Shown here in pieces: positions 2,303 through 17,380 of a DNA stretch of 34,475 nucleotides. Below the pieces are notes generated by a model. That model was not told where the DNA came from, did no database searches, and was given only the letters and a program-made list of their open reading frames with translations. Origin of the DNA: a virus. The position numbers were made by a program, and so were the translations under genes. The first letter of the stretch is position 1; each line of letters opens with the position of its first letter. The stretch is taken from the IMG/VR virus record IMGVR_UViG_3300025099_000008, positions 1 to 34,475 of that record; one strand, 5' to 3'.

Positions 2303-5300
2303 TGTCAGTTATTAAACAATCAGATAGACCTCAATTTTTTAATCAACGTATTGGAATTAATAGATTTGACACTAATAGTCAGGAACCTTGGGAAGCTATT
2401 AGTAATGCAGCAGGAAATGTTGCTTCAATAGCAATTAAAAAATTATACGATAATGCATTAGAATCTGGAGAGACTAAAGGACAAGCAGCAAATTTAATTA
2501 TTACTGATGCAGGTGGTGCGCCTAAAGCTTTAACACCACCTAAAAATTTAAGTCCAACAGAACAAAAAGCTTATCAAAATATTGTAAATCAAAGATATTT
2601 ATTTAATATAAATAATGCCTTAAAAAATAAATCATTAGAATTAAAAACAAAACATCCTTACGATGTTAATGCTTTTTCTAAAGCTTTTTCTACATTTGCA
2701 GATGGGCTTGCAAAATCATCTGGAGAAAAATGGGGAGGAAGAGTAAATGACATAGCTATTAATATGCTTGCAATGAATAAATTAGATATCGAATCTTCTA
2801 CTTCTACAAAAATATTTGAAGAAACAAAAGAAAATTCAATTAATGATATTAAAGGATTAATTGGACAAGTTAGTGAATATGCAAAAATGGGACAAGCTCT
2901 TAGCGATCCAGATGATCCATTAAATGTTCCTATAGGAGTTGCTCATCTTGCTCAATTAAATGAATATTTAAAAACAATGGTAGAAGCAAATTTTATAACT
3001 ACAAAAGAAGCGCAAGAATTTAAACAAGAAGCTATAACAAATATGGCTCTTGGTTCTGTTGATATTTTATTAAATAAAACACAAAACAAAATACAAAGAG
3101 ATATTTTAGAAAGTTTTATTATAAGCGGAGATAGTTCTGGATTTAATTTATTACCAGATGGTATGGCAAATAATTTAATTGAATTAAAACAATATGTTAA
3201 TTCTAATAAAGGTGGAAATTTAGGTGAAATATCTTCTAGAATAACAAAAGTAAGAAACCCATTAGATGATAAAGAAGCTTTTGTTTTAGCGGAAAATGAA
3301 AAAATAAGAAAATTTGAATTAAAAAAAGCAAACCAAAGATCAGAAATAAGAACAAATATAGCAAAAGCAGAAAGAGAATTAGCTATAGAACAAGAAAAAG
3401 TTAGATTAGAATCATATAAAATTAGTACAAAAGCACAACTTGATAGATTAAAACAGATTGAAAAAGATTATAATGCTGCGGAAAAAGAAGCAGCTGTAAA
3501 ATATTATTTAAGAGGTGGATTAACATCAGGTATTGATCTTGAAGTTTTAACTTTGAAAAAAACATTACAAAATTTTGATGAGTTAGAATCATTTTATTAT
3601 TTTGAATCAATGTCTAATGGTGTGACTAATATATTAAATAATCGTTTAGAAGAAATTGATAAATTTACAACTGAAAAAAAAGCTCTTACTTCAGACGAAA
3701 GAAAAGAAGCATATAAAAATGTTAAACAAACATTAGCAAAAAGCGTTTTAAATATTTTTGGCAATGGAATTTTATATGAACCTTCAAAATTAAATCAATT
3801 TAAAGATGTTTTAAATGGTATTGATTTGCCTAGAAATGAAAATGATTTTTATGCAATGCAAATAATTAACAAAATTTATAATAACATTGACTACGATATA
3901 CAAAAATTTACTAAATCTTTCCAACCAAGTACAAGACAAACACAATTAGAAAAAGAAAGAACGATTACTAATTGGAATAATCTTATAGATTTAGCAGAAA
4001 ATATAGATCCAACAAATTTAGATCAAATGGCAAAATTAAATGCTTTAATAAAAGATTTTGAAAAGCAACCTTCTTCATTATTTATTACCGCAGATATGAG
4101 AAAAAAAGCTAACGATTCATTAACGTTGCTTCGAGCTAAAGAAACGGCATCAAACAGTGTTATGGCGTTGTCATCTAATGATGTTAATAATTTAGAATTG
4201 CTTAATTTAAATCAAATGCCAAGAAATTTTGACGCAAACGATTTAACAAATAAAAATCTTCTTAAGGTTTCTGCTAAACTTAAAAATTCTGGTGCTGATA
4301 TAACAAAAATAAATACTTATCTTTCTAATATAAAACAAGATAAAAAAACAAATGAAATTAATGAATTAGAAACAACAAAAAAAGTTGAAATAAATTCCGC
4401 TCTTGCAACAGGAGTTAAGAATGAAAATTATTCTGATGAAGATCATAGAAAAGGCGTAGACAATATAGTTATAGAAATTGGGAAAGACGAAATTTTTAAA
4501 CAAATGAACGCAAGCCCAGAGTTAAATAATTTAATAAATACATTTGGTAGTAATATTATAATGGATACTTATAAAGATATTATATCTGGAAATACTCTTA
4601 ATATATCAAATGATGTTATAACAGAAGCAATGACAAATTATGCTTCTAATTCAAAAATAAGAAGAGATGAAAAAACTCCATTAATTAATAATTATGTTAC
4701 TCAAGGATATTTAACTCAATCTGAAGCAGATAAATTAGATTTAATGCTTTTATTAAAACAACAAAAAGGAATGGAAACAAGAAGTTATGCTGAGCTTTCT
4801 GTATTAATAGATAGCTCAACATCACAGGAAAATTTAACTATTGAATATAGTAACGATGGTTCTAGTCAAGATAGATTAAAAAAAGTAAATGCAAGACAAT
4901 TACTTTTGCTTTCTATGGGTGCTAGCTCAAGGTCTTTAAGAAAAAAACCTCCAGCATTTGCTCAAGTAATAAATCCAAGCCAAGCTGAAAAAAATTATAT
5001 TACAAAATACGAACCAATTATTAAAACTTATATGGCAGCAGGACTTGGTGCTGATGCTATTATAAATCATTTTAGTAAAAAATTTAAAGATGAATACGAA
5101 ATGGAAAGCGAATTTGTTTTTGAAGATAATGGTATAAACAATTTTTCTAATATAAGAAAAAATCAAAAATTTAAAACACAATATCCTATTGGAAATTATT
5201 TTCAAACTGAAGATGAAACTAATTGGTATTTAGGCAAAATAGAAAATAATTTAAACACACAAGGTTTTACTTTGTATGCAGACAATACACAATATGAAAG

Positions 5301-10887: not shown

Positions 10888-11430
10888 ATGAGAGATGGGT
10901 GGCAGATGTGGCGTGGCGAAGATGGTTTTAATAAAGAACAAGTTGAAGCTGTTATTAACGCTGGCATAAAAAATCAACCCGACAAGGCAACTACATTTAA
11001 CGCGCAAAATGATGCGCGCTCAAGTCGTGTTTCTTGGGTTAATAATGAAGCCTGGATAAGAACAGCTTTGTATGAGTATATAAAAATAGCTAATAGAAAT
11101 GCTTTTAATGTGCGTGTCGAAAACTATGCTGACTTGCAATATACAGAATACCATGCCTCAGAAGAAGGTCATTATGATTGGCACACTGATGTATTCTGGG
11201 GTGAAACAAAACCATTTGATAGAAAACTAAGCATCACAGTGCAACTGTCTGACCCTTCTGATTATGAAGGTGGGGATTTTGAATTTTCAGAAGTGGAAAC
11301 ACCAGCAAATTCAAAGCAAAAAGGTACAGTATTAATATTTCCAAGTTATTTAAGTCATAGAGTTTTGCCTATTACGAGTGGTGTAAGGCGTTCTCTAGTA
11401 GCTTGGTTTGAAGGACCGAGATGGAATTAA
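10888..11430 (+). CDS. 2-oxoglutarate/Fe(II)-dependent oxygenase (PKHD-type hydroxylase)
   Basis: A 180-aa protein with the full iron-binding facial triad: H99 and D101 in DWHTDVFWG and distal H157 in FPSYLSHRV. R167 (GVRRSLVAW) is placed to bind the 2-oxoglutarate carboxylate. The family hydroxylates amino-acid side chains or small molecules using O2 and 2-oxoglutarate, and such genes are frequent in marine phages. The prolyl/PiuC-like type is the best match from the GGDFEF and HRVLP segments. It sits between the tail fibre and a collagen-like fibre full of Gly-Pro-Thr, so hydroxylation of Pro in that fibre is an attractive inference, not shown. It starts at ATG 10888, 4 nt after the fibre stop. 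Confidence 0.85.
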   Translation: MRDGWQMWRGEDGFNKEQVEAVINAGIKNQPDKATTFNAQNDARSSRVSWVNNEAWIRTALYEYIKIANRNAFNVRVENYADLQYTEYHASEEGHYDWHTDVFWGETKPFDRKLSITVQLSDPSDYEGGDFEFSEVETPANSKQKGTVLIFPSYLSHRVLPITSGVRRSLVAWFEGPRWN

Positions 11431-11461
11431 CGCTAATAGTTAGAAGTAAGGAGTAACGAAG

Positions 11462-12313
11462 ATGGCGATTAAAGTTGGTGGTACAGAGGTTATTGATGGT
11501 AGTAGAAATATTACTACCGACATTGGCACTGTTGACGGTAGAGATATAGCAACTGACGGTACAAAACTAGATACTGTTGCTACAAATGCTGATGTAACTG
11601 CAACGGCTTTAACTGCAAATGCTACTATTACTTCTGTAGCTTCAAATGATTTAGTTCCTGTCTATGATACTTCTGCAAGTGCTTGGAAAAAAGCTACTGT
11701 AGCTAACGCAGGAACATCTGGCCCAACAGGTCCAACAGGTCCAGCAGGTCCAACTGGACCGACAGGTCCAGCAGGTAGCACTGGTCCAGCGGGTCCAACA
11801 GGTCCAGCAGGAGATGATGGAAGTGATGGGGGTACTGGGCCAACAGGTCCAGCTGGGCCAGCAGGCCCAACAGGTTCAGCAGGACCAACAGGTTCTACTG
11901 GGCCAACTGGTCCAACAGGTCCAGCAGGAAGTAATGGTTCTAATGGCTCAACAGGTCCAACAGGTCCGACTGGACCTAGCGGAGGAACTGGCCCTACAGG
12001 TCCAACTGGTTCTACTGGTCCAACAGGTCCATCTGGAACACCCTCAACCAGTGCTGGCACCGTTGGTTCTTATGCCGTAGCCTATATACGTCACGACTCC
12101 AGTTCTTACCCCGTAGGCCACGGTAGTACGTGTAGTGGTGCCGATATCTTTGCAAGTAGTACTGCTGGTGCAGGCGACTTCACTGCAACTTACAGCAACC
12201 CTGTTTGGACTTACAGTGGAACTAACTTTTCGGGTACTTGGAGAAACATGGGGTTTACATCATCAAGTGGCGGTGACGGAAGTAAGAAATCGCTTTGGTG
12301 TAGAATATCATAA
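11462..12313 (+). CDS. Collagen-like fibre protein with receptor-tip-like C-terminus
   Basis: Residues 1-83 contain a phage-fibre-type head, including [16 protein letters not shown], a pattern seen in many tail-fibre shafts. Residues about 84-192 are an uninterrupted run of roughly 36 Gly-X-Y triplets dominated by Gly-Pro-Thr, Gly-Pro-Ala and Gly-Ser-Thr, predicting a collagen triple helix. Residues 193-283 form a small globular tip ending in a Trp-Cys-Arg-Ile-Ser motif, as found at the ends of marine phage fibre proteins. The start ATG at 11462 follows a strong AAGGAG. It is most likely a second receptor-binding or decorating fibre. DNA repeats inside the collagen part are nearly identical, unlike those of the tail fibre. 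Confidence 0.8.
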
Positions 12314-15431: not shown

Positions 15432-15989
15432 ATGGCTGAAGTAGAAATAGCAGGAGCAAAGATAAAAGGTGGCAAGTTAATGTTACTTGTACCAATTGTT
15501 TCGGCACTTGGCGGTGGATTGTGGGGTGGCTTTGAAATTTACAAAGACTACATGGACATGAAAGGCATTATACAAAATATAAATATTAGTGCTATTAAAT
15601 CTCAGAACACACTAATCCAAACAAAACTAGATAGTGCGTTGGAGTACAGCAAAGACATTAAGAATAATCTGCGTGATGATATATTAAAGCTAGAAGGTTA
15701 CATAGATAAGATAGATAACAAGGTAGAAAAATCTTCTGAAAAAATTAAAAACACACAAGCATCAATAGATTTAATGGTAGAAAATACACTAGCTGAGATG
15801 AACCAGTTAAATAAAGATGTTAATTCTTCTCTTCGAGAAATAGAATCTTTGAATAGAGAAACAGAAAAAGATGTGCGTGATACAATGAGAGATACAGAGG
15901 AGCGCATTGATTATAATTTAAAACAATTAGAAGATAGATTAATTGAAAGATTACAAGAAGCATTAGACAATCCATTAGTAGGAAATTGA
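15432..15989 (+). CDS. Membrane-anchored coiled-coil protein
   Basis: A 185-aa protein with a short cytoplasmic head and one transmembrane segment at ~15-35 (LMLLVPIVSALGGGLWGGF). A continuous charged coiled coil of ~140 residues follows, with Ile/Leu heptads and Glu, Lys, Asp and Asn. It has the form of an inner-membrane spanin, a tethering protein or a pore partner. The coil is longer than in typical spanins. The start ATG has an AGGAG 5-9 nt upstream. It is directly followed by the metallothionein-like mini-gene. Confidence 0.68.
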   Translation: MAEVEIAGAKIKGGKLMLLVPIVSALGGGLWGGFEIYKDYMDMKGIIQNINISAIKSQNTLIQTKLDSALEYSKDIKNNLRDDILKLEGYIDKIDNKVEKSSEKIKNTQASIDLMVENTLAEMNQLNKDVNSSLREIESLNRETEKDVRDTMRDTEERIDYNLKQLEDRLIERLQEALDNPLVGN

Positions 15990-15990
15990 C

Positions 15991-16074
15991 ATGACTTGTA
16001 AATGCGGAGATAAATGTATATGCAAAGAATCATGCGCTTGTATAGACAAGTGTATTTGTAAGGAAAGAAAGTGA
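15991..16074 (+). CDS. 27-aa metallothionein-like protein with four CxC repeats
   Basis: An ATG at 15991 opens a 27-codon gene ending in TGA at 16072-16074. Eight of 27 residues are Cys, set as four evenly spaced Cys-X-Cys pairs at 3/5, 9/11, 15/17 and 21/23, a 6-residue repeat with Lys, Asp and Glu between. There are no aromatic residues and no hydrophobic core, as in metallothioneins; size and spacing recall fungal copper metallothioneins. A TAGGAA site lies ~8 nt upstream. The stop overlaps the GTG start of the metallophosphoesterase (GTGA at 16071-16074), a classical coupling arrangement, so it is very likely translated. Metal binding (Zn, Cu or Cd) is inferred; supplying metal to the next enzyme or detoxification are both possible. 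Confidence 0.75.
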   Translation: MTCKCGDKCICKESCACIDKCICKERK

Positions 16075-17174
16075 CACCAAAACAACAAGAGGCACTTGAT
16101 GCTGTTGTTAAGTATGGTAGCCAAGTCAAAGCGGCTAAGGCTCTAGGGATTAGTCGCTCTGCTCTAAGGCATAGAATAAATTCAGCTAAGAAATATGAAG
16201 AAGTTGATGACGGTATAAAGTATGCCATGAATGAAACAGGTATGGCAAACATTAATGCTGTACATTCTGGTTGGATTAAGACTGATGATGTTAGTTTATA
16301 TTTTAGAAACGAAACAGATAGCTTAAATACAAACGATATAGCGGAATCAATAAGAGATGTTATAAATGGAATCGTTCTGTGTGAGATTGTAAAGCCTCCT
16401 AAGGTGGTGGAAGATAACTTGCTTACCCTTTACCCTATCGCTGACGCACACATAGGCATGAGAGCGCACGCTAGCGAGACTGGTGAAGAATATAATTCTG
16501 ACATTGCAGTAGAAAGAATTAGAACTGGGATGGCTAAGTGTGTTGCTAGTTCACCACAATCTAAATATGCATTGGTGTTAGATGTTGGTGATCTTACTCA
16601 CGCTGATGATAACAATGCTCAGACTCCTAGAAGTAAACATCCACTCGATGTCTCTGAAAGATTTTTTTATTCTCTAAGGTGTGCAATAACTGCGTTGGCT
16701 TCGGCAATTGATTGTGCGTTGCAGAAACATGAGCAGGTAATATGCAGAGTACTGCGTGGTAATCACAACGAGACTTCTTATTTGGCTGTGATGTTTGCAA
16801 TCGCGGAGCGGTACAAGAATAATATTAGAGTAACCGTTGAACAAACGTCTGCTGATTTCTTTGTGCATGAGTTTGGAAGTGTTATGATTGCCGCGCACCA
16901 TGGAGATAAAGCTAAGGCAGATAGACTTGTTATGCATATGGCTGATGCCTGGCCTGATATATGGGGTAGAACTAAACATAGATTTTATTTTACTGGACAC
17001 CTACACCACACAATGATGCGTGAGATAGGCGGTGTTCTTGTTGAACAGCTACGTGCAGTAACAGGTAAAGATTCCTATGCTTCTAGTCATGCATATAGCA
17101 GTCGATCACAGATGCAGGGGATTACATATCATAAAGAAGAAGGTGAAGTAAGCCGCGTAAAGGTTTGTTTATAA
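16071..17174 (+). CDS. Calcineurin-like metallophosphoesterase with N-terminal helix-turn-helix
   Basis: A 367-aa protein starting at GTG 16071, coupled to the preceding mini-gene. Residues ~1-42 form a Fis/homeodomain-like helix-turn-helix (KAAKALGISRSALRHRI). Residues ~115-340 contain all metallophosphoesterase blocks: D125-x-H127, G173-D174, G230-N231-H232-N233-E234, H276-H277-G278-D279 and G309-H310-x-H312. These bind two metal ions (Mn, Fe or Zn) and hydrolyse phosphodiesters or phosphomonoesters. Together with the DNA-binding head this suggests a nuclease or phosphatase acting on DNA. Similar proteins are widespread in marine phages without known substrate. The stop TAA overlaps the next ATG. 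Confidence 0.86.
   Translation: MTPKQQEALDAVVKYGSQVKAAKALGISRSALRHRINSAKKYEEVDDGIKYAMNETGMANINAVHSGWIKTDDVSLYFRNETDSLNTNDIAESIRDVINGIVLCEIVKPPKVVEDNLLTLYPIADAHIGMRAHASETGEEYNSDIAVERIRTGMAKCVASSPQSKYALVLDVGDLTHADDNNAQTPRSKHPLDVSERFFYSLRCAITALASAIDCALQKHEQVICRVLRGNHNETSYLAVMFAIAERYKNNIRVTVEQTSADFFVHEFGSVMIAAHHGDKAKADRLVMHMADAWPDIWGRTKHRFYFTGHLHHTMMREIGGVLVEQLRAVTGKDSYASSHAYSSRSQMQGITYHKEEGEVSRVKVCL
16711..16721 (+). promoter_or_regulatory. Recurrent 11-mer ATTGTGCGTTG inside the phosphoesterase gene
   Basis: An exact copy of the motif found at 9125, 24286 and 28053, here within coding sequence and in a frame different from the near-copy at 31658-31667. No gene starts shortly downstream, so it may be a chance copy or an internal regulatory site. 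Confidence 0.25.
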
Positions 17175-17380
17175 TGTGGATTATGGCTATGATATATTGC
17201 GCTACCTTTTCTCAAGGTGATATGTGTAAGGGATGGGTTCCTCCTATTGCAGAAACAACACAAGAAAGATGTGAGAAAAATATTAAGAAAGCAGTCTATG
17301 CTATGGCTAATGCTATAGATGATAGAGGTGGTGAATTATTTTATATTGATTGCCAGTGTATCAACGTTAAACATCAATAG
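17174..17380 (+). CDS. Small Cys-rich exported protein, last late gene
   Basis: The start at ATG 17174 overlaps the phosphoesterase stop (TAATG), giving 68 aa. A short hydrophobic N-terminus (about 1-12) could be a weak signal or anchor. Five Cys lie at 9, 18, 33, 60 and 62, the last two as another Cys-X-Cys. No family was recognised. Its stop lies 14 nt inside the convergent minus-strand gene ending at 17367, leaving no room for a terminator between the late and early transcripts. Confidence 0.55.
   Translation: MWIMAMIYCATFSQGDMCKGWVPPIAETTQERCEKNIKKAVYAMANAIDDRGGELFYIDCQCINVKHQ

Follow-up and report, generated by a model that had tools for sequence, protein, structure and literature searches.

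A cysteine-rich mini-gene and its neighbours

The stretch of DNA analysed here, referred to as the window, comprises the 34,475 nucleotides of IMG/VR virus record IMGVR_UViG_3300025099_000008. The window has a GC content of 36%, and no tRNA was found in it. Among portal proteins, the nearest to its own is that of Pelagibacter phage EXVC031P (62.7% identity), followed at about 35% by others including that of OM43 phage MEP301. On the + strand, at 15991..16074, lies a mini-gene of 27 codons (ATG start, TGA stop) that encodes a Cys-rich microprotein of metallothionein-like appearance, MTCKCGDKCICKESCACIDKCICKERK. The window copy has a mass of 3.04 kDa and contains neither His nor an aromatic residue, while 8 of its 27 residues are Cys. 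These are arranged as four C-x-C pairs that recur every six residues, with Lys-rich spacers in between (X2-CXC-X3-CXC-X3-CXC-X3-CXC-X4).

The mini-gene is an internal duplication of a 12-residue unit. Unit 1 (C-K-C-G-D-K-C-I-C-K-E-S; codons 3-14, CKCGDKCICKES) occupies 15997..16032 and unit 2 (C-A-C-I-D-K-C-I-C-K-E-R; codons 15-26, CACIDKCICKER) occupies 16033..16068, both on the + strand, and the two are identical at 9/12 residues. In most copies the unit follows the consensus C-x-C-x-[D/E]-[K/Q/R]-C-x-C-K-x-x. A DNA pattern for the eight Cys has a single match in the window and no match in 100 dinucleotide-preserving shuffles.

The mini-gene is preceded by a gene for a predicted membrane-anchored coiled-coil protein (15432..15989, + strand; MAEVEIAGAKIKGG...), its coiled coil and anchor being judged from sequence. 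The last codons of this gene contain a Shine-Dalgarno-like AGGA (15980..15983, + strand) located 7 nt 5′ of the mini-gene ATG, and this site is preserved across the window clade. RNA structure around the mini-gene is ordinary (z = −0.64), and scans for promoters and terminators gave nothing better than chance. An antisense ORF of 113 codons spans 15911-16252.

The mini-gene is followed by a metallophosphoesterase (MPE) gene with an N-terminal helix-turn-helix (16071..17174, + strand; 367 codons, GTG start), whose Shine-Dalgarno-like AAGGA (16060..16064, + strand) lies within the mini-gene. The MPE is a clear member of PHROG 704 ('DNA repair exonuclease', E 6e-85), a calcineurin-like family, by both its profile match and its five metal/active-site motifs (DAHIG, GDLTH, RGNHNE, AAHHGD and TGHLHH in the window). 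These motifs (DxH, GD, GNHN, H, GHxH) are invariant in 22/22 full-length relatives tested. MPE homologues are common in phages (2043 records), and this one is an ordinary gene, peculiar to the window clade only in following a mini-gene. A preliminary description of this DNA had reported the 27-codon frame with four evenly spaced Cys-X-Cys pairs, a ribosome site before it, a GTGA stop/start overlap and the full set of phosphoesterase motifs. Each of these features is present as described, the TGA of the overlap lying at 16072-16074 and the GTG at 16071-16073.

The same description had remarked that the next gene also ends in a Cys-X-Cys pair. This small protein (17174-17380; 68 aa, hydrophobic N-terminus, 5 Cys) does literally end in DCQC, but the relevance of that ending is doubtful because similar-looking small proteins in other phages (L164, L215, L222), with some of their Cys in common, have no terminal CxC and end in KCF. 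Elsewhere in the window, a collagen-like glycine-proline-threonine repeat protein (11462-12313) follows a 2OG-Fe(II) oxygenase (10888-11430, PHROG 61); the two (10888-12313) are possibly a prolyl hydroxylase/substrate pair.

Conservation, selection and patchy distribution of the mini-gene

The preliminary description had suspected a conserved gene overlooked by gene callers, and the mini-gene was indeed found, unannotated, in 36 other IMG/VR contigs, which with the window gives 37 records and 18 distinct proteins. The gene product is 27-30 residues long across marine phages. A search with the eight-Cys-codon pattern alone returned, among the matches listed, low-complexity repeats, and sequence-constrained patterns were used thereafter. 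All eight Cys, and thus the four CxC pairs, are invariant in 18/18 distinct proteins (37 records), although the CxC positions were preset by the pattern search except in the contigs collected through the MPE. This MPE-based search yielded 28 loci; upstream sequence is available for 24, and the mini-gene is present in 23 of these. In the 13 distinct DNA versions of the MPE-based set, the eight Cys are all kept while their codons alternate between TGT and TGC.

Codon conservation, which had been suggested as a check, bears out a translated gene. Across the 13 distinct DNA versions, pN/pS is 0.24 for the mini-gene versus 0.10 for the MPE. On a parsimony tree of the 17 distinct 27-codon versions, Cys codons underwent 6 silent and 0 replacing changes (neutral P < 5e-5), and replacing changes overall numbered 25 against 31.8 expected (P = 0.009); these figures are approximate because the tree was built from the same short sequences. 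Diverged copies in other phages retain the spacers as well (CKCxxKCICxxxCACxxxCICKxRK, of which the CKC, CIC, CAC and CICK parts were preset in the earliest of the constrained patterns), and spacer conservation extends to phages with neighbour proteins just 48-55% identical. Freeing the pattern of its CKC and CAC constraints added a single contig (L178), and a third pattern added none. The mini-gene is therefore real and conserved, and selection acts on its translated frame.

The gene following the mini-gene differs among the 37 records: an MPE in 24, a pair of DUF5872-like genes in 7 and lysis genes in 6. In the seven DUF5872-like contigs the mini-gene ends in TAA, and the two DUF5872-like genes follow with no stop/start overlap. 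In the six lysis-cassette contigs, which have no MPE, it lies near a GH108 or phage-lysozyme endolysin that is preceded by a small membrane protein. These membrane proteins are called holin-like from where they lie, from apparent membrane segments and from a single sub-threshold GTA_holin_3TM match. The neighbour that stays the same is the gene for the coiled-coil membrane protein, found 5′ of the mini-gene in all lineages whose contigs reach it. Two contigs from the same sample, one with the MPE behind (L045) and one with the DUF5872-like genes behind (L169), encode an identical peptide. A small basic gene has the mini-gene on one side in contig L172 and on the other in L164, so that the mini-gene also moves locally.

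On a tree of the HEMTPAYP neighbour protein (75 rows), the presence of the mini-gene requires at least 4 changes, 2 of which are forced by well-supported branches, and a further lineage (L057/L177) has the mini-gene without this neighbour. The mini-gene is thus a patchy accessory gene, gained and lost among related phages, and its patchy distribution indicates that it is dispensable.

It is also independent of the MPE and not its constant partner. Thirteen contigs hold the mini-gene without an adjacent MPE, and one (L021) shows the reverse: its MPE has all motifs and a TTG start a few bases after the stop of the coiled-coil gene, with the mini-gene cleanly absent. The site of this clean absence lies upstream of position 3260 of that contig.

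Metallothionein-like form and a second microprotein family

The layout of the 27-mer is that of a minimal metallothionein, in line with the metallothionein-like label of the preliminary description. At 3.04 kDa and 8/27 Cys, it lies below 10 kDa with a high Cys content; its Cys are arranged as CxC, one of the CxC/CxxC arrangements of metallothioneins, in 18/18 proteins; and aromatic residues and His are few, with none in the window copy and one Tyr, at a single spacer position, in some relatives (L005, L155). This Tyr is unusual for a metallothionein, though compatible with one. The closest resemblance in form is to the minimal Cu-metallothioneins of Neurospora crassa and Agaricus bisporus (Binz-Kagi family 8), which have 26 residues and 7 Cys in the arrangement X2-CXC-X5-CXC-X3-CXC-X2-C-X3 (PMC4755600). 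The phage and fungal peptides are alike in having 26-27 residues with 7-8 Cys, mostly as CxC, in sharing spacers of 3 between pairs, and, for the window copy, in the absence of His and aromatic residues. The phage 27-mer differs in its strict six-residue period, its eight Cys in two duplicated units and its carriage by a tailed phage; homology between the two is not detectable. Bacterial metallothioneins such as the SmtA-like proteins and MymT are also small Cys-rich metal binders, but are about 50-60 residues long with different spacing of Cys (and His).

Homology to a described metallothionein family was not detected, as the 27-mer has no match in Pfam, PHROGs or NCBIfam and only insignificant matches in a PDB profile search (best E 0.22, no metallothionein), although such a test is weak for a peptide of 27 residues. 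The mini-gene is absent from 50,697 phage records, and neither the 27-mer nor the 26-mer had a meaningful match in the phage collection. It is likewise absent from 84,980 prokaryote genomes, where scanning picked up low-complexity repeats alone. The literature searched yielded no description of a metallothionein-like gene in a phage. A metallothionein-like character of the 27-mer is thus plausible, and well supported in form.

Related phages carry a second unannotated family, the CNCCDKCQC microproteins, of about 25-35 residues with a predicted basic amphipathic N-terminal helix followed by the motif. Among 72 usable loci, 20 have the 27-mer, 11 have the other Cys-rich microprotein (ten MSYLNRVLRAILAMPCNCCDKCQCNN or a close variant, one, L215, MKMYLKRVIKSLLNKGCDCKKCECE), 41 have neither kind near the HEMTPAYP neighbour, and none has both. 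The family was first spotted by a Cys-only search; a pattern scan, in which D/E-K was preset, found it in about 70 contigs (L222:7387, L225, L226, L227, L228, L232, L235, L241, L266, L218, L215:3920 and ~60 contigs among L278-L356), usually after a 54-residue membrane protein. In about half of the ~70 contigs the gene lies directly 5′ of a holin-like gene. Like the 27-mer, these microproteins have the C-x-C-x-D-K-C-x-C motif, are unannotated and lie among late and lysis genes; they have one such motif where the 27-mer has two, and the motif is the only sign of homology between the families. Sharing CxCxDKCxC, the two may have a metal site in common.

Proposed function and alternative readings

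We consider it probable that the mini-gene product is a phage metallothionein-like metal-thiolate microprotein, encoded by an independent late accessory gene, that buffers, sequesters or hands on a thiophilic metal. Its two tandem 12-residue units would present eight cysteine thiolates and, lacking a signal sequence, would remain in the reducing cytoplasm, where they would most likely take their fold by binding soft metal ions (Cu(I), Zn(II) or Cd(II)). The mini-gene belongs to the late/lysis region, apparently as part of a late transcription unit, with the gene for the membrane coiled-coil protein close by and lysis genes close by in several lineages. That it lies in the tail of the late gene block points to a role in the late phase of infection; the peptide would then be produced late, sequestering or buffering thiophilic metal inside the infected cell or passing it on. 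We infer metal binding, timing and physiological role alike, and the four CxC pairs could instead serve a redox or protein-protein role. Should the 27-mer bind metal, it would rank with the smallest known proteins of its kind and, going by the literature searched, would be the first from a tailed phage; how infected marine bacteria handle metal at a late stage would then become a question open to testing.

One tentative alternative, on balance unlikely, is that the 27-mer works as part of the lysis cassette and adjusts the timing of holin or endolysin in a metal- or thiol-dependent way, with the CNCCDKCQC microproteins as its functional counterpart. This role is consistent with the six contigs whose mini-gene shortly precedes a small holin-like membrane protein and an endolysin of the GH108 or phage-lysozyme type, with the absence of any locus with both microproteins, and with the finding that relatives without the 27-mer have the other CxC-x-DK-CxC microprotein, often immediately 5′ of a holin-like gene or in the vicinity of endolysins. 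However, no endolysin was recognised alongside the mini-gene in the DUF5872-like lineage or among the window proteins tested, and many copies of the CNCCDKCQC family sit before non-holin genes. The 41 related loci with neither microprotein indicate that lysis does not need the 27-mer, and the tail of the late operon also gathers unrelated accessory genes. A broader proposal, speculative and rather improbable, is that marine phages own alternative Cys-cluster microproteins sharing the CxCxDKCxC metal site among their lysis genes, and that a dedicated phage metal-thiolate peptide controls late functions such as lysis timing or the removal of Zn/Cu from host targets.

It is very improbable that the mini-gene encodes a regulatory leader peptide, in which Cys codons or metal sensing would arrest the ribosome and so regulate the gene behind. 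Bacteria do have Cys-rich leader peptides, and the mini-gene is short and Cys-rich and, where the MPE follows, shares bases with its start codon. Against this reading, the spacers are conserved across diverged phages with differing downstream genes, several of these genes have no overlap with the mini-gene, and the RNA structure is not unusual.

The preliminary description had proposed a metal-carrier/enzyme pair, and we find little room for a peptide that would be translated in coupling with the two-metal MPE and supply it with metal as carrier or chaperone. The GTGA overlap, the MPE ribosome site inside the mini-gene and the presence of the mini-gene in nearly all close MPE contigs with upstream sequence would fit such a pair, but gene order already contradicts it. 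The overlap taken as a sign of coupling is confined to the MPE-bearing arrangement, and in L021 the MPE is kept and the frame absent, the outcome that the description itself had set against its proposal. The stronger evidence is the reverse case, the 13 contigs with a mini-gene and no MPE alongside. In addition, none of four MPE homologues from isolated phages is preceded by a comparable mini-gene, and MPEs of this superfamily are not known to depend on a dedicated chaperone.

A functionless chance open frame, which the short length of 27 codons and the empty family searches might suggest, deserves next to no credence, as it is contradicted by the selection statistics, by conservation across diverged phages with the ribosome site retained, and by the lack of the pattern in shuffled sequence. 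Standard annotation, as these findings show, misses conserved genes of 25-30 codons in the late operons of marine phages.
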